This document shows, piece by piece, positions 3 through 5,303 of a stretch of DNA of 5,426 nucleotides. Both the position numbers and the translations under genes were made by a program. Position 1 is the first letter of the stretch. Every line of letters starts with the position of its first letter. The DNA lies in NCBI GenBank assembly GCA_041623475.1, contig JBFJWU010000246.1, positions 1 to 5,426 on the forward strand, read 5' to 3'. The DNA is from JBFJWU01 sp041623475 [NCBI: bacterium] (lineage in GTDB: Bacteria > J088). The notes below the pieces were generated by a model. That model did no database searches, had not been told where the DNA came from, and saw only the letters and a list, made by a program, of their open reading frames with translations.

Positions 3-131
3 GCAGTCAAGCTGCCACCGCAGATCGGATCGACGGCAATCATTACCGCGCGCGCCTCGTTCGGTCCCTGCTCGCCCCGAACTGAAGCAGACCTGGCGCG
101 TTTTATTGTCCGACGCCTGGGCGTGTCGTGA
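3..131 (+). CDS. 3' end of an unidentified CDS (partial, runs off the left edge)
   Basis: The frame starting at base 3 is open to a TGA at 129-131 and encodes 42 residues ending in LARFIVRRLGVS. I do not recognise the protein. The main support is the junction: its stop overlaps the GTG start of the acyltransferase at 128 as GTGA, a classic translational-coupling arrangement, and the acyltransferase lacks a clear ribosome binding site of its own. About two thirds of codon third positions are G or C, in keeping with the neighbours. The frame starting at base 2 is also open, to a TGA at 83-85, with similar composition, so the choice of frame is not certain. If correct, this gene and the acyltransferase form an operon. 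Confidence 0.4.
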   Translation, partial: AVKLPPQIGSTAIITARASFGPCSPRTEADLARFIVRRLGVS

Positions 132-1081
132 AAAGACTCTTCAGCTGGCTCGGGTTTGCAATTCTCAGGGTTTCCCTGATGCTGTTGCGCAGCACGGACC
201 TGGAACGGGCAAGGCGCAAGGGACGGGCCCTGGGTCGTATTGCCTGGCACCTGGATCCGAAATGGACCCGACTGGCTGCCCGACAGGCAACCGAACGATT
301 GGACCATCCCGATCCTCAAACATTGATTAACGAAAACTACCAGCACTACGGGCAGGTCCTTGCTGAGCTGGCTTGTATCGATGGAATCATTCGCGACGCG
401 AAATCAATCTACCGAATTGAAGGTTCCAGTAACGCTGAGGCGCTGGCTAATGGCGGGCTGCTGGTCACCGGGCATATCGGCAACTGGGAAGCGGTTGCAC
501 CTGCCCATACGAGCCACTATGGACCGATGCACGCGCTGGTCAAACCGGTCCACAATCCCTTTGTCGACCGGTGGATCAACGACATCAGGCTGCGAACGGG
601 TGTCCATCCCGTTGTGACCCGTAATAATGCCAGTCATATCCTCAAATTGTTGAAGTCAGGCGAGACAGTGTGCGCGCTGGTCGACCAGAACAGCCTGTAT
701 CACGAAGGGGTTTTCGTGCCCTTTTTTGGCAAGCCTGCCTGCACCCACTATGGTCCGGCGATGCTGGCCGCGCGCAGCCGTGTCCCGGTCGTTCCCGCAT
801 TTGCCGTCCGCGAACCGGGAGGATTCCTGATCCGCTATGGTTCGCCGATTGAACCTACGGGATCAAGGGACCTGAGGGCCACAACCTGGACAATTACCGC
901 CCGGATCGTAGAATTCCTCGAGAGTATCATCCGTCAATACCCGGAGCAATGGTTCTGGGTACACAAACGCTGGCGAAATCAGCCCCGTGCTGATGTCGAA
1001 GCCTGGAAGTACGGGCCAGACGGGCCCGGTTGGGTTCGGGAACTGGCGATTCGCCGGCCAGACGACCGCCAATCGGTCTGA
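128..1081 (+). CDS. LpxL/HtrB-family lipid A (lysophospholipid-type) acyltransferase
   Basis: A 317-residue protein of the bacterial lipid A biosynthesis acyltransferase family, close to the usual length of about 300. Family members transfer an acyl chain from acyl-ACP or acyl-CoA to a lipid A precursor or other membrane lipid at the inner face of the inner membrane. Residues about 4-21 form a hydrophobic N-terminal segment (MKRLFSWLGFAILR onward) suited to membrane anchoring. The catalytic HX4E motif is present as GHIGNWE, with H116 and E121. Further family signatures are VDQN at 185-188, the following VFVPFFGKPA segment, and WFWVHKRWR starting at W275. GTG 128 is the only usual start codon between the upstream in-frame stop at 83-85 and the conserved region; the Shine-Dalgarno is poor, and the GTGA overlap suggests coupling to an upstream gene. 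The exact substrate (lipid A, ornithine lipid, aryl polyene or other) cannot be told from sequence, so no gene symbol is given. Confidence 0.9.
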   Translation: MKRLFSWLGFAILRVSLMLLRSTDLERARRKGRALGRIAWHLDPKWTRLAARQATERLDHPDPQTLINENYQHYGQVLAELACIDGIIRDAKSIYRIEGSSNAEALANGGLLVTGHIGNWEAVAPAHTSHYGPMHALVKPVHNPFVDRWINDIRLRTGVHPVVTRNNASHILKLLKSGETVCALVDQNSLYHEGVFVPFFGKPACTHYGPAMLAARSRVPVVPAFAVREPGGFLIRYGSPIEPTGSRDLRATTWTITARIVEFLESIIRQYPEQWFWVHKRWRNQPRADVEAWKYGPDGPGWVRELAIRRPDDRQSV

Positions 1082-1097
1082 TTACTCTATTTTTTTT
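1064..1097 (+). terminator. Weak terminator-like hairpin and T tract at the acyltransferase 3' end
   Basis: GACCG (1064-1068) pairs with CGGTC (1074-1078) around a 5-base loop, ending just before the TGA of the acyltransferase. A run of eight T follows at 1090-1097, but 11 bases separate stem and T run, and the T run also encodes the lysines near the C-terminus of the convergent JmjC gene. It may work poorly or not at all as an intrinsic terminator. Confidence 0.25.
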
Positions 1098-2068
1098 CGG
1101 AAAATCAGATCCTCTTCTTCGAAAAAACTGGACAAATAGGACTGCAGCAAAAACGGTCGGGTGGAAACTGTGAACAAAAATGACAACATGGGCGAAGATC
1201 GGATCGCCGATGCAATATCGATAAATTTGAACGCAACGCCGATCGAGTCGGTCGGATTTTCCACCATATGCCATGTCCAAGGTGGAAAAAACAAGACGTC
1301 TCCCGGCTCCAGGACAATCTCATATGGACTGGCAAAGTGGTAAAGGCAATCTTCGTCGTCTGAGAGTGCGCGCGGATCTGTGTTTGAGTAGAAATAATTT
1401 GTCCGGCTCGCCCGTACATTCAAAAACATTCGGTCAGCAACCGGGTAAAACGTCCATTTTTTACGCCCCCAACACTGGACGAATACTGTATTCTGCACCG
1501 CCGAGTGGATCGGTGTATCGGTTCCGGAAGCGCCCATGAACATGTAATATCGTTGCTGCAGATTGACAGATTTCTTGAATCTGGTCAGCCACGCGTCATC
1601 AAAGTCTTCGCGTAAAATCGATTGCTGATCGACCATCCGGGAAAATTTTAGATATTTCTTGCTTCCTGACCGAAGCAGGTCAATGTAATCTGACAGAGGT
1701 ACCGATTCGAAATCCTGGTCGCTGGCTTTACTCTTGAGGCCGGGATTGTTGAATAATGTGACCTGGACATCGCCGAAATTTGCCTTGAAGTAGTCCAGCG
1801 ACCACTCCTGCACACAGGGCCAGGCACCGGCCGCACCGCGATACACCCTTACCTCGGACGGATGCGACAGTTCAGCCGGAAACATACCGGGGCCAAATTC
1901 GCGGACTGTCAAATAGTTGCCGACTTGGTCCGAGCTAAACTGTGACGCGATTCGCTGGCGCCAGCGACTTTCAATTCTCCCGATTGATTTCGAATACAAA
2001 TTCTGACCAAAAAGATGCTCAGTCAACAGGAAAAGATTAAAGATTCCCATCCAGTAACGCGGAGGCAT
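1082..2068 (-). CDS. JmjC/cupin_8-family protein with HxA in place of the metal-binding HxD
   Basis: A 328-residue cupin-like (JmjC, FIH-type) protein; related enzymes are Fe(II)/2-oxoglutarate dioxygenases that hydroxylate proteins or small molecules. Residues about 60-95 carry the family's WPCVQEWSLDYF-type element. The core reads TDTPIHSAVQNTVFVQCWG then RKKWTFYP, matching the human FIH stretch around H199 to K214. H188 aligns with the first iron His, K203 with the 2-oxoglutarate-binding Lys (same spacing of 15), T185 with the Thr three residues before the His, and H267 in GDVLFFPPWTWHMVEN with the second iron His. The carboxylate ligand is missing: position 190 is Ala (codon at 1499-1501). 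The C-terminus ends FRKKIE, with TAA at 1082-1084. Start: ATG 2068 is chosen, with only a weak purine-rich stretch upstream; TTG 2122 (346 residues) follows a G run and is possible, as is ATG 2050. Function may be a hydroxylase, a halogenase-like enzyme or a non-catalytic cupin. Confidence 0.82.
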   Translation of the reverse strand: MPPRYWMGIFNLFLLTEHLFGQNLYSKSIGRIESRWRQRIASQFSSDQVGNYLTVREFGPGMFPAELSHPSEVRVYRGAAGAWPCVQEWSLDYFKANFGDVQVTLFNNPGLKSKASDQDFESVPLSDYIDLLRSGSKKYLKFSRMVDQQSILREDFDDAWLTRFKKSVNLQQRYYMFMGASGTDTPIHSAVQNTVFVQCWGRKKWTFYPVADRMFLNVRASRTNYFYSNTDPRALSDDEDCLYHFASPYEIVLEPGDVLFFPPWTWHMVENPTDSIGVAFKFIDIASAIRSSPMLSFLFTVSTRPFLLQSYLSSFFEEEDLIFRKKIE

Positions 2069-2206
2069 TTCAGTTTCTTTGGCCACAGTACGTTTTACCC
2101 CGAACGCCGGTTTCGTCGCCAAATTGCCCCCCGTGGAAGAAGACGCCCGGAGATGTCAGTACGTTGCGATTGTCGGCCCCAGGGCCTAGGCTTAATAGTG
2201 GGTGAG
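2069..2206. promoter_or_regulatory. Divergent intergenic region between the JmjC and SRPBCC genes
   Basis: These 138 bases separate the chosen starts of two divergent genes and should hold both promoters. I see no convincing -35/-10 pair. What can be seen is an 8-bp palindrome GCCTAGGC at 2184-2191, a direct repeat CAGTACGTT at 2086-2094 and 2157-2165, and a direct repeat GAGATGTCAG at 2150-2159 and 2204-2213 that contains two candidate ATG starts of the SRPBCC gene. The extent depends on the starts of both genes; if JmjC starts at TTG 2122 the region shrinks. Confidence 0.35.
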
Positions 2207-2857
2207 ATGTCAGGGGGATTCTTCGTGGGCGACCGATTGGGAAAAGCATCAGGAACTGGCTGCAAGTGCCAACAGGTAACGTTGCCTGCGGTACTGATTA
2301 TTCTGACCTCAGCTCTATTCCTGCCAAATGTATATTCTCCCGTCATCGAGTTCCTCTGGACAGATTTTGCGAAAATCGAGATCGCAGCTAGTCCGGAACG
2401 TGTCTGGTCGGTACTGTCAACGCCCGGAATCCTCCAAAAAACCCATCCCTTCTGCAGGGCCAACCCCGTCGACAAATGGCCAGGGCCAGGATCGGTTGAC
2501 TACGTACATTATTACGGGGGCACCACCATGATTCGACGGATCACCGACTGGCACGAGGGCAGCGGATTTGATCTGGTCATCGACGATGTCAAAAACCAGC
2601 TGGAAAAATTTGATGTGTCCTGGCGAGTATCTGCGTCGGAAAACAATTCCACCCAGTTGTCGATTCGACTTACACCTTCTGACGTGCCCATACGATCGTG
2701 GCATCTGCCGTGGATTCTTATGTGGCGATACCAGTCGGCCAGTTACCTGCCACCGTTACTTGCCGGATTCAAATACTACATTGAAACGGGACACCCCGTC
2801 ACGAAAAATCAGTTTGGCCCGCATTCGCTGTCACCCGCATCGCCTGAGGAAGATTGA
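2207..2857 (+). CDS. SRPBCC (START/polyketide cyclase-like) ligand-binding protein
   Basis: A protein of about 216 residues with an SRPBCC helix-grip fold, a family that binds hydrophobic ligands or acts as aromatase/cyclase or lipid carrier. Visible signatures are KIEIAASPERVWSVL at about 56-70 (first strand and helix, W67), a central beta-rich region with WHEGSGFDLVIDD, and the C-terminal helix with GFKYYIETG from G187 followed by the family-typical NQFG at 201-204. Residues 26-41 (LPAVLIILTSALFLPN) are hydrophobic and precede the domain, so a membrane anchor or signal-like segment is possible. The start is unresolved: ATG 2207 has no well-spaced ribosome site, GTG 2225 follows GGGGGA at 6 bases, TTG 2282 follows AGGT at 4 bases, and ATG 2153 or ATG 2015 would extend it (the last into the JmjC gene on the other strand). 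The ligand is unknown. The gene is divergent from JmjC and convergent with the cytochrome-monooxygenase gene, with 34 bp between stops. Confidence 0.75.
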   Translation: MSGGFFVGDRLGKASGTGCKCQQVTLPAVLIILTSALFLPNVYSPVIEFLWTDFAKIEIAASPERVWSVLSTPGILQKTHPFCRANPVDKWPGPGSVDYVHYYGGTTMIRRITDWHEGSGFDLVIDDVKNQLEKFDVSWRVSASENNSTQLSIRLTPSDVPIRSWHLPWILMWRYQSASYLPPLLAGFKYYIETGHPVTKNQFGPHSLSPASPEED

Positions 2858-2891: not shown

Positions 2892-4247
2892 CTAACCGCC
2901 CCGTGGTGCTGAGATATACAGGTTGGCAACGCACATTTCATCGTCCGTGCCCTCACCCCAATTGACGTCGATCGGTTCTTTTTGGATGCCGTCGACGATG
3001 GGCTGGTTGCCTGGGCTGTTATCCCACGTACACGCCACGTACAACTTGTCGCCCGGATAAAAGCGGACCGGCGTGGCGAAAGTATAGACAAATTGCCAAC
3101 CAAAGTCCCAGTCCGGAACCCAAAGCAACAGGTCTTCTGTCCCATCGGCACGGATAATCTTGACTTCGCCGCTTTTGCCCAGTGCATGCAGGTGCAGCAG
3201 GATCGAATATATTTCAAAACCGTTTTCTGTTGTAACATCAGGCGCAAACGTTGAAAAGAAACCTTCGGGTTCTCCCTGGGCAATGTGCGTCACTGGCGAT
3301 TCGCCGGCCGGAATATCCATGTTGCGAAAAGTAGGCCAGGAAACGTCCAGCCACGGCGCGAACGATGCCTGGTGCTCGACCGAGTCTGTAACTTTGAACC
3401 GCACCGCCGTCCGGTCCGGCTGCGGATTGATCGACGTGGTGTTGTAATGCATCTGCAGGACAACTTTTGAGCCCGGCCGAACCTGGATCCCGGTGCCTGC
3501 AGGAAAATCCCCGGAACCCATTCCCGGGACCCATTGGCCGAGCTGCAATGCTGGAATCTGGTCGTTTTCGCCTGCGGGCCCACCATAGCAGGTATAGCCG
3601 ATCCCAGGGTCATCGGCGTCATACTGTTCGACCAAACCGACGGCGTCCTGCAAATCTGCAAGCCCGTCTGGCGGAATCAGGTAGACCGCTATGTGGTGCG
3701 CCTGCTCGACGACATCGGGGTCGGCGTCCATACCAGTTACGTAGACCGTTGTTTCTTCCGGCCAGTCAAAGACGAAACAGTGATAATCATCCGGGGACTG
3801 CTCCGGGGTATATGGCTCGGGAATCCTTAGTTCCAGATCCACTCGGTCAAGTTCGGCAAGAACATGTGTCCCGTGCTCCGGTTCGTTACCCGGGTCCCCT
3901 GGCTGGCCCGCGTTCAATGCCCAGTCAACGATCACGTTGACCTGCTCATCGGTCAGGGAGTTGTCGTTTTTATATTCGTACTGTACCGCCGCAGAATCGG
4001 CCCCCCAGGGCGGCATCAACCGGTTGGCAACATTAAACGCAATGGCCTCGCGAAACTGGTCTACCCCGGCGTGATGATCCAGGGCGAACGGCGCCAAGCC
4101 ACCCGCCTGGTGACAGCCGATGCAGTTCTCGTCAATAATCGGCTTGACATGTTCGTAGTAGGTCAATTCAGACCGAGGCGTATCCGTAGTTCCCAGACAA
4201 CCTTCGACAACAAGTATCAGTACCAAGTAAACCGCAGTTCGCGTCAC
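2892..4247 (-). CDS. Cytochrome c - copper type II monooxygenase (PHM/DBM-like) fusion lipoprotein
   Basis: A 451-residue exported protein. Residues 1-16 form a short hydrophobic lipoprotein signal ending VVEGC, with C17 as the likely lipidated Cys. Next comes a c-type cytochrome domain with heme motif CIGCH (42-46) and likely distal Met M78 in NRLMPPWG. The rest matches the catalytic core of peptidylglycine alpha-hydroxylating monooxygenase and dopamine beta-monooxygenase. Copper-H ligands are H184-H185 (EQAHHIAVYLI) and H267 (VVLQMHYN). Copper-M ligands are H352 and H354 (LHLHALGK) and M438 (TDDEMCVANLYI). C406 and C439 match the PHM C293-C315 disulfide. Known relatives hydroxylate C-H bonds using two electrons, usually from ascorbate; here the heme domain could supply them (inference). 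GTG 4247 is chosen because GGTGGAG lies 7 bases upstream and a signal peptide follows at once. A longer open frame upstream is antisense to the next gene. The substrate is unknown. Confidence 0.9.
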   Translation of the reverse strand: MTRTAVYLVLILVVEGCLGTTDTPRSELTYYEHVKPIIDENCIGCHQAGGLAPFALDHHAGVDQFREAIAFNVANRLMPPWGADSAAVQYEYKNDNSLTDEQVNVIVDWALNAGQPGDPGNEPEHGTHVLAELDRVDLELRIPEPYTPEQSPDDYHCFVFDWPEETTVYVTGMDADPDVVEQAHHIAVYLIPPDGLADLQDAVGLVEQYDADDPGIGYTCYGGPAGENDQIPALQLGQWVPGMGSGDFPAGTGIQVRPGSKVVLQMHYNTTSINPQPDRTAVRFKVTDSVEHQASFAPWLDVSWPTFRNMDIPAGESPVTHIAQGEPEGFFSTFAPDVTTENGFEIYSILLHLHALGKSGEVKIIRADGTEDLLLWVPDWDFGWQFVYTFATPVRFYPGDKLYVACTWDNSPGNQPIVDGIQKEPIDVNWGEGTDDEMCVANLYISAPRGG

Positions 4248-4254
4248 AAAATTT

Positions 4255-4261
4255 CTCCACC
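4255..4261 (-). promoter_or_regulatory. Ribosome binding site that fixes the GTG start at 4247
   Basis: Read on the minus strand this is GGTGGAG, with its GGAG core 7 bases before GTG 4247. It supports this start over the in-frame ATG codons further upstream, which would add 125 residues without family resemblance. Confidence 0.75.
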
Positions 4262-4276
4262 ATCCCCACTGTTGCA

Positions 4277-4307
4277 GCGACAGCCTAACAAATGTTAGGT
4301 TTATACT
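4277..4307 (+). promoter_or_regulatory. Candidate promoter for the plus-strand copper monooxygenase
   Basis: The -10 candidate TATACT (4302-4307) differs from consensus by one base. The best -35 is GCGACA (4277-4282, four of six matches) at a long 19-bp spacing, and the inverted repeat sits almost exactly in the middle of that spacer. Long spacers with a central dyad are typical of MerR-family control; this is inference from geometry only. Confidence 0.45.
4284..4299. promoter_or_regulatory. Inverted repeat, probable operator (CCTAACA-AA-TGTTAGG)
   Basis: The two 7-base arms are perfectly complementary, separated by two A. It lies upstream of the plus-strand -10 and just downstream of the minus-strand -10, so a bound protein could affect both genes. 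There is no T tract, and it precedes both genes, so a terminator is unlikely. I do not recognise it as the site of a specific regulator. Confidence 0.6.
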
Positions 4308-4329
4308 GCAATTTCCATGACGGCAGCAA
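4300..4329 (-). promoter_or_regulatory. Candidate promoter for the cytochrome-monooxygenase fusion gene
   Basis: On the minus strand TTGCTG (4329-4324) and TATAAA (4305-4300) are 18 bp apart. The -10 overlaps the plus-strand -10 (4302-4307), so the two promoters probably compete for polymerase. The -35 matches consensus only in its first three bases, so confidence is moderate. Confidence 0.4.
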
Positions 4330-4332
4330 AAC

Positions 4333-4337
4333 AAGGA
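4333..4337 (+). promoter_or_regulatory. Ribosome binding site that fixes the ATG start at 4344
   Basis: AAGGA lies 6 bases before ATG 4344. The in-frame ATG at 4317 has no such site and would put nine extra residues before the positively charged start of the lipoprotein signal. Confidence 0.75.
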
Positions 4338-4343
4338 TACATC

Positions 4344-5303
4344 ATGCGACGCTCCGGGGTGCCACCGCTTGAGTTTTTGTCTGCCTGCGCAGCCGCGCTG
4401 GTGATCACGGGGTGTGGCCAATCCGCTGTTGACAGCCCCGTGGATGCTCGTCTTGATGCAACCCAGTTCACGCCGTCTGCGACCCGACAGGTTTTTGCCC
4501 AACCGGAACTGGTCATTTCGCCGGGCACAGAGGTTATGCAGTGCTGGGTAGTCGACTGGACACCCGATGAAGATATCTACATTCGTGCGTTCAAGGGGCA
4601 TCAGGCACTGGGTGGGCATCATGTAGCGGCGTTTTCCTCGGCGTTTCCCAGAGAACCCGGTGCCACATTTGACTGCACGGACAACGAGGACATGGTTTCA
4701 TTGTCTCCGTTGATCCTGCCCGATCCTGAAGGCGAAAACCTGCTGCCGCCTGGATTTGCGGTGCGACTGCCTGCCAAAACGAACATCGTCATCCAGTCCC
4801 ATTACCTGAATACAACTGACCGGGACATGCTGGTGTCCGACATCGCCGAATTCGTTATTTATGGCGGCAGTGAACCGCCTACTGTTGCCAGCTATCTGAT
4901 CATGAACCACGGCGAGTTTGAACTATCGCCGGGCGTGACTTCAACCACGCTGGAATGCGACATGGAAACCGACGTCAGCCTGATGCTGATGCTGGGCCAT
5001 ATGCACGAACACGGGACGAGCATGTCGGTGACCCGGGAACGAAATGGCAACTCCGACATCCTGTACGGGATTGATCAATGGACCGTTGACCTGCGTGACC
5101 AGCCCGTTGTCAAAAAATATGCAAACGATGAGCCGCTCCGGCTCGTCGCTGGTGACCACCTGGCCCTGACCTGCAATTACGACAACCGGACAGAAGGACC
5201 GCTGAAATTCCCCGAGGAAATGTGCACGATGGTGTCGTATTACTATCCAGCCCGATTTGAGCCGCCGGCCCTGCCCAACGGCCTGATCTTCTGCGACAAC
5301 TGA
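4344..5303 (+). CDS. Copper type II monooxygenase (PHM/DBM-like) lipoprotein, no cytochrome domain
   Basis: A 319-residue exported protein, a divergent paralogue of the fusion on the other strand. The N-terminus MRRSG, a hydrophobic stretch and ALVITGC form a lipoprotein signal with C24 as the lipidated Cys. The two-domain PHM-like core follows. Copper-H ligands are H92-H93 (LGGHHVAAF) and H153 (IVIQSHYLN). Copper-M ligands are H219 and H221 (LGHMHEHG; H223 is an additional His) and M293 (FPEEMCTMVSYYYPA). C67 (VMQCWVVDW) matches the Cys before the first copper site, and C277 with C294 matches the conserved C-terminal disulfide. All six copper ligands are kept, so it is probably active, although it is shorter than the catalytic part of its neighbour. 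No CXXCH is present, so electrons must come from elsewhere, perhaps from the cytochrome domain of the divergent partner (inference). ATG 4344 is preferred over 4317 because of AAGGA at 6 bases. The substrate is unknown. Confidence 0.87.
   Translation: MRRSGVPPLEFLSACAAALVITGCGQSAVDSPVDARLDATQFTPSATRQVFAQPELVISPGTEVMQCWVVDWTPDEDIYIRAFKGHQALGGHHVAAFSSAFPREPGATFDCTDNEDMVSLSPLILPDPEGENLLPPGFAVRLPAKTNIVIQSHYLNTTDRDMLVSDIAEFVIYGGSEPPTVASYLIMNHGEFELSPGVTSTTLECDMETDVSLMLMLGHMHEHGTSMSVTRERNGNSDILYGIDQWTVDLRDQPVVKKYANDEPLRLVAGDHLALTCNYDNRTEGPLKFPEEMCTMVSYYYPARFEPPALPNGLIFCDN

Follow-up and report, generated by a model that had tools for sequence, protein, structure and literature searches.

A carboxylate-less JmjC/Cupin_8 protein and its lineage: a candidate two-histidine Fe(II)/2-oxoglutarate enzyme

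Introduction

The stretch of DNA analysed here (5,426 nucleotides, called the window below) encodes a JmjC/Cupin_8 protein, P0001, from which the JmjC 2-His-1-carboxylate triad (HxD/E...H) is absent; His-Ser-Ala (HSA) stands where that triad has HxD/E. This gives it the HxA iron motif, as in Fe/2OG halogenases in general (HxA or HxG). Among these, SyrB2, WelO5 and BesD have such motifs and belong to other families than P0001. Is the missing acid an accident, a sign of decay or a family trait, and what might an iron site with one open position be used for? A preliminary description, made from the sequence alone, called the protein halogenase-like or degenerate. Caution is needed with the former label, since the HxA/G motif alone yields false positives in halogenase annotation, as the accessible part of one report states (PMC12871659).

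Searches and samples

Pattern search. The pattern T-P-x-H-x-[A/G]-x7-Q-xx-G-x-K-x-W was run at the DNA level on 84,980 species genomes. It gave 51 matches in 47 stretches; the motif is uninterrupted in 43 of these matches, of which 39 were retained as Cupin_8-like. Twelve were dropped, eight being interrupted by a stop codon (L003 together with seven records of Corallococcus or Myxococcaceae) and four being chance frames (L005, L022, L028, L039); L024, initially kept, scores only 44 bits. Because Thr, Pro, His, Gln, Gly, Lys and Trp are fixed by the pattern, they are invariant by construction in the 37 motif-carrying rows. Conservation was therefore counted on 56 rows without the motif, 36 from the 73-member alignment and 20 added later; some of these sit in tandem with motif-picked genes, and such genes also seeded the profile used below.

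Profile search. The genomes of 23 loci were covered by profile rather than by motif. Among 395 genomes from the phylum of L031 (Bacteroidetes), 64 had a match, one of family grade and the others at 6e-39 or weaker; all 29 loci fetched from these weaker matches are HxD. Matches occurred in 14 of 198, 20 of 129 and 4 of 36 genomes of three orders, and in 13 of 377, 1 of 199 and 3 of 199 genomes of the phyla of three members. The class of the Acidovorax genome had none in 369 genomes at E 1e-42, and three further genomes had none. The phage search gave no P0001 match, and viral contigs gave two stretches, both with a stop in the motif, and none in a second search.

Neighbourhoods. Domains were tallied for 86 of 118 flanking ORFs, leaving out short ORFs and some scanned separately, and the counts have no background control. 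A further neighbour scan covered 44 selected ORFs.

The gene and its iron motif

Features of the window are collected in Table 1. The ATG start agrees with the family, in which Met occupies that column in 62 of the 67 members having a letter there. The protein matches Pfam Cupin_8 (PF13621) at E 1.7e-23, with 84.3 bits against a cut-off of 27.4. No NCBIfam model matched, Asp_Arg_Hydrox (PF05118) is not among the Pfam matches down to E 1, and PhyH appears only at E 0.2, under the cut-off.

Table 1. Features of the window that bear on P0001
Feature	Position	Strand	Basis or remark
LpxL/HtrB-type acyltransferase	128..1081	+	Lip_A_acyltrans E 1.8e-40; tail to tail with the P0001 gene, stop codons abut
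CDS, HxA Cupin_8/JmjC protein P0001	1082..2068	-	328 aa open frame; ATG at 2068; alternative TTG 54 bases upstream possible
His267, second iron ligand by alignment, within His-x-Val-x-Asn	1268..1270	-	Translation and alignment
Lys203, putative 2-oxoglutarate-binding lysine	1460..1462	-	Translation and alignment
Ala190 (GCG) where an Asp/Glu ligand is expected	1499..1501	-	Translation and alignment
His188, first iron ligand by alignment	1505..1507	-	Translation and alignment
Thr185 preceding the first His	1514..1516	-	Translation and alignment
N-terminal helix, residues 3-43	1940..2062	-	AlphaFold model and conservation
Divergent ORF with Polyketide_cyc2 domain (residues 120-220)	2015..2857	+	Pfam; true start probably inside the listed ORF

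Translation of the minus strand of 1082-2068 places the HSA motif and the second His exactly at the codons first given for them, with Ser189 at 1504-1502. It also bears out the claim that the carboxylate alone had been lost, both His, the 2-oxoglutarate Lys and the preceding Thr being intact; the role of Lys203 as 2-oxoglutarate binder we take from the JmjC family. The spacing from His to Lys is 15 residues, in a stretch that phmmer aligns to JMJD5, which has HQD there. At the His+6 position P0001 has Thr, while the JMJD5 and FIH sequences have Asn; across the 73 aligned members the count is Asn 51 and Thr 15. A DNA-level search for H-x-A-xx-N-xxxx-Q-xx-G-x-K-x-W finds a single occurrence in the window, and none of 200 shuffles has one. 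The GCG codon of Ala190 is two base changes from either Asp codon and one from a Glu codon.

The missing acid is a family trait

The closest relatives of P0001 share 43-46% identity with it (L031, E 4e-97). In the 56 motif-free rows His188, Lys203 and His267 are each present 56 times, so that the free variation of Lys and His by which a pseudoenzyme was to be recognised is not seen; His267 is also kept in all 73 aligned members and in all 20 further rows. The acid position in the same 56 rows reads Ala 33, Gly 9, Ser 6, Asn 3, Thr 1 and Asp 4, an acid thus being missing from 52. The question whether Ala or Gly is conserved together with the two His and the Lys receives a divided answer: the three residues are constant, and the acid position is not Ala or Gly throughout. 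Residue 185 varies slightly in the 36 motif-free members (Thr 28, Ser 7, Ala 1).

A second count was made with the critical column masked from the profile. Matches of at least 150 bits outside the pattern picks (n=55) have Ala 29, Gly 10, Ser 6, Asn 3, Thr 1 and Asp 6, as many as two Gly rows (L070, L113) coming from genomes that the pattern had touched as well, via cut-off loci; the acid is missing in 49 of 55. Of the six Asp rows, the tree assigns L078 and L080 to the HxD/E group; the remainder are L122, L125 and a tandem pair in L112. Between 100 and 150 bits the residues are Asp 35, Glu 2 and Ala 5, with one further row (L168) that the alignment misreads. It takes the tree to tell OocP-side members (102-270 bits; see below) from HxD/E proteins (114-154 bits), as bit scores by themselves do not part the two.

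Other positions are conserved as well. K-x-W and H-x-V-x-N are near-constant in it (Trp 73, Val 72 and Asn 69 of 73) and are rarer, yet present, in 14 HxD/E rows (Trp 3, Val 7, Asn 3), and the N-terminal helix is conserved (His18 61/71, Gly21 61/70). These alignments support the view that the family conserves this state, in which the carboxylate alone is gone and both His and the Lys remain.

Within the tree P0001 sits in a clade of 17 (support 99) with Ala 6, Gly 9 and Asp 2 at the third position, so the idea that its clade ordinarily carries Asp or Glu falls away. The two Asp copies (both from genome G541, locus L112) are nested inside an HxG clade, with L034 and L042 as HxG neighbours, and Asp was therefore probably regained there; over the whole tree the third position changes state 13 times. 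That P0001 is an ordinary HxD oxygenase altered by an isolated mutation or a sequencing error is very unlikely, because its relatives lack the acid too. The exact gene is known from a single copy and a genome-wide search with exact P0001 peptides found no relative (16 stretches, none confirmed), which leaves some room for such an accident; the family counts at the acid position rule it out in practice.

Decay fares no better. dN/dS was computable in 4 of 11 close pairs and came to about 0.03, 0.03, 0.07 and 0.15, from components of 0.026/0.87, 0.104/3.1 (near saturation), 0.107/1.55 and 0.286/1.88. Together with the conservation this is not the pattern of a decaying enzyme, and with His, Lys and His invariant and dN/dS low in the relatives we found no support for calling the protein degenerate; a pseudoenzyme is unlikely.

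A compensating carboxylate was sought and rejected as a candidate. The family has no specific conserved Asp or Glu: Asp257 (72/73) and Asp155 (61/73) are also kept in the seven HxD rows compared.

Tandem arrays of two to four family members were seen at L025, L037 (G017), L109 (G509), L110 (G514), L111 (G437), L112 (G541), L013, L033 and L043. One of these loci, L013, belongs to Acidiluteibacter ferrifornacis, a relative in cultivation. The third iron position can differ within an array, being Ala, Gly or Asn in G437, G509 and G514 and Ala or Ser in L025 and L037. Asp-bearing family members occur at L112, L122 and L125.

Predicted structure

The AlphaFold model of P0001, built without metal from a 71-row alignment, has pLDDT 89.3 and pTM 0.90. 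Foldseek ranks JMJD5 first. By VIA-align, JMJD5 (4aap) has Z 24.3 over 228 residues, with Lys203 and Thr185 in a predicted DSBH fold, and JMJD7 has Z 21.9 over 252 residues. Tied with JMJD5 is PDB 8a82, entitled 'Fe(II)/aKG-dependent halogenase OocPQ', which covers model residues 1-318 with Z 24.1 over 297 residues. OocPQ has the lead among those listed matches that start at the first residue of the model, and this full-length comparison is the fairer one because JMJD5 matches cover the model only from about residue 49 on.

The JmjC hydroxylases JMJD5, JMJD7, TYW5 and FIH resemble P0001 in fold and co-substrate site, JMJD5 being the best match by sequence; JMJD5 and FIH carry HxD where P0001 has Ala. 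The D201A and D201G variants of FIH are in the PDB with metal and 2-oxoglutarate, to judge from the entry titles (2ilm, 3d8c), and the fold can therefore hold both without the Asp.

Comparison with the halogenase OocP

The accessible part of PMC11260071 describes OocP, a trans-acting Fe/2OG halogenase, as pairing with the auxiliary protein OocQ in a heterodimer, the chlorinating unit of oocydin synthesis; the same text reports that an oocQR mutant lost chlorination and that supplying oocQ restored it. It had earlier been listed as a cupin-like-domain protein required for oocydin (PMC4552970, in the part available). The OocP fragment reads T-N-W-H-Q-G (HxG), followed by G-V-K-R-W and W-P-H-A-V-I-N. 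OocP shares with P0001 the Cupin_8 domain, the missing acid, the Lys, the second His, K-x-W and H-x-V-x-N, and the N-terminal part.

In trees that are unrooted and in which OocP has a long branch, OocP groups on the carboxylate-less side: it joins HxA proteins in a 99-row tree (support 84) and falls in a 12-row carboxylate-less clade in a 38-row tree (support 99). Forcing OocP with the 12 HxD/E rows of the latter was rejected by an AU test on these 38 hand-chosen rows with OocP residues 101-308 only (p 0.0187); with the trait column dropped, p against the same placement was 0.0181 and, under a mixture model, 0.0038.

The two proteins also differ. Identity by structure is about 14%, P0001 lies outside OocP's own subclade in the unrooted trees, and OocP acts with OocQ in a polyketide assembly line, whereas the five window proteins scanned (5.4 kb window) have no match to carrier-protein, PKS or NRPS domains. 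By family profile OocP is no nearer than JMJD5 (1.8e-28 versus 1.9e-41). The precedent that OocP offers for a halogenase-like reading of P0001 is concrete, and by this analogy the reading is supported in part: a conserved carboxylate-less trait and a Cupin_8-fold HxG halogenase both exist, and halogenation is a candidate activity of P0001 itself.

Gene neighbourhoods

The P0001 and acyltransferase genes are convergent and so do not form one operon; the lipid A acyltransferase-like neighbour is the only substrate hint for P0001 itself. Within the window no Rfam family reached its gathering score and no tRNA was found, and promoter and terminator scans stayed at chance level. Further along lie two divergent genes, 2892-4622 (-) and 4317-5303 (+), with copper type II ascorbate-dependent monooxygenase C-terminal domains. 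Both look lipoprotein-like by eye, the former also has a weak cytochrome c match under the cut-off, and since the listed ORFs overlap, the minus-strand start is probably near 4250-4300.

Around members of the family, one cluster of similar ORFs, with a B12-type radical SAM protein as its scanned representative, is found in 8 of 20 loci, and another, represented by an AspH-family protein, in 8. The tally of 86 flanking proteins gave Radical_SAM 19, Asp_Arg_Hydrox 14, B12-binding 13, LPG_synthase_TM 5, Glycos_transf_2 5 and PhyH 3, and the AspH-like neighbours are themselves HxG in the 14 aligned. OocP-side members in two high-GC genomes adjoin very large acyl-AMP ligase (FAAL)/carrier/thioester reductase/AurF-like proteins (L189:6531-10862, L191:1007-5194). 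Likewise on the OocP side, a member with an HCA motif on a Planktothrix agardhii plasmid (L165:3707-4810) is clustered with three P450 genes, a gene of the squalene-synthase family and one with prenyltransferase/squalene oxidase repeats. Locus L016 has an acyl ligase (AMP-binding) and a KAS III-like gene. Other loci have no such neighbours, L156 for instance having a DNA polymerase beta subunit and a glutathione peroxidase. Taken without background control, the context of the relatives mildly favours substrates of an acyl or lipid-like kind.

A CLC-type chloride channel gene (L151:7687-9453 minus; by Pfam) directly adjoins the HxA gene of one Halobacteriovoraceae genome, and another (L152:1753-3489 plus; by clustering) is separated by three genes from the HxA gene of a Bacteriovoracaceae genome. 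Such a neighbour would fit a halide enzyme and is suggestive; it may also be chance.

A second Cupin_8 gene with intact HxD or HxE stands beside the HxA gene or one gene away in three of the closest genomes, L031 (547-1221 plus), L006 and L032. Its product is perhaps a partner subunit.

Discussion

If the missing acid is a trait, the open position at the iron has to be accounted for. The explanation that we favour, and hold to be close to evenly balanced between right and wrong, is that P0001 is a two-His Fe(II)/2-oxoglutarate JmjC/Cupin_8 enzyme of OocP-like kind, whose open iron site is used by halide. With the Asp gone, the iron would be held by two histidines only, one site being open to an outside ligand; chloride or bromide would fill it, 2-oxoglutarate and O2 would yield the ferryl, and the substrate radical would pick up the halide, in the manner of OocP and other HxA/HxG halogenases. 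An acyl-chain or lipid-like molecule is the probable substrate. The motif, the predicted fold, the conservation, the selection on relatives and the place of OocP among carboxylate-less proteins are shown; that P0001 binds iron, 2-oxoglutarate and halide, what it does with them and the type of substrate are inferred. In its favour, the one relative of known chemistry that turned up on the carboxylate-less side, OocP, is a halogenase. Against it stand the minority of Ser, Asn, Thr and Asp at the third position, and the lead of JMJD5 over OocP by sequence profile with a tie in structural Z. The nested Asp copies of G541, moreover, would suit a halide site poorly and count against a family-wide one.

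That varying third position, which extends even to Asp, also fits a ligand that is dispensable, and so brings in a two-His hydroxylase, which, like human AspH, would have water, held by second-shell residues, in the empty site and would make an alcohol. We consider this a real possibility, if on balance a doubtful one. AspH and PF05118 enzymes share with P0001 the two-His iron site, theirs being HxG, and belong to another family; genes of the AspH family are common beside the relatives of P0001. The available text of PMC13168262 and PMC8252765 gives the iron of AspH as bound by two His and water, and according to the former AspH does not halogenate its substrates though its iron site resembles that of a halogenase. 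The preliminary statement that FIH without its Asp keeps some activity proves half right: in the part of PMC8252765 at hand, Asp201 to Gly retains some, while Asp to Ala or Glu is inactive, and P0001 has Ala, which speaks mildly against a simple FIH-like hydroxylase. No water-holding acid specific to the family was found either in the comparison with seven HxD rows, and the one characterised carboxylate-less relative is OocP. A non-catalytic role, the fold keeping metal or 2-oxoglutarate for structure or sensing, or pairing with a catalytic HxD/E paralogue, seems unlikely to us. The intact Cupin_8 neighbours in three genomes, the tandem arrays and the need of OocP for its auxiliary OocQ, as PMC11260071 in its accessible part describes it, would agree with such a role; at 17 of 20 loci, however, no HxD/E Cupin_8 gene was detected, and even distant relatives, the motif-free rows included, keep both His and the Lys without exception. 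Loss of catalysis usually frees catalytic residues to vary.

The fold, the motif type and one Cupin_8 halogenase were already known. What appears new from the alignments and trees is that the missing acid marks out a wide lineage in which P0001 has its own subclade; a literature search that had most subscription journals outside its scope found neither a paper on a carboxylate-less Cupin_8 family nor the OocPQ structure paper. The lineage spans at least Bacteroidota, Bdellovibrionota, Acidobacteriota, Planctomycetota and Cyanobacteriota. Tentatively, and with more doubt than conviction, we picture it as a large group of JmjC/Cupin_8 enzymes that would carry out two-His radical chemistry (halogenation or other anion transfer) on lipid-like molecules, with the third position toggling among Ala, Gly, Ser, Asn and Thr and back to Asp, so that natural halogenase and hydroxylase states would coexist in one family.

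No Cupin_8-fold halogenase other than OocP was met in this analysis, and if the halogenase reading is true, what is now one example would become a widespread kind, with much of the family lying away from classical antibiotic clusters. If its members are hydroxylases instead, they would be natural two-His JmjC enzymes, contrary to the usual reading of a missing acid as inactive. Members with HxG beside HxD in one clade are natural near-neighbour pairs for asking what decides chlorination versus hydroxylation.
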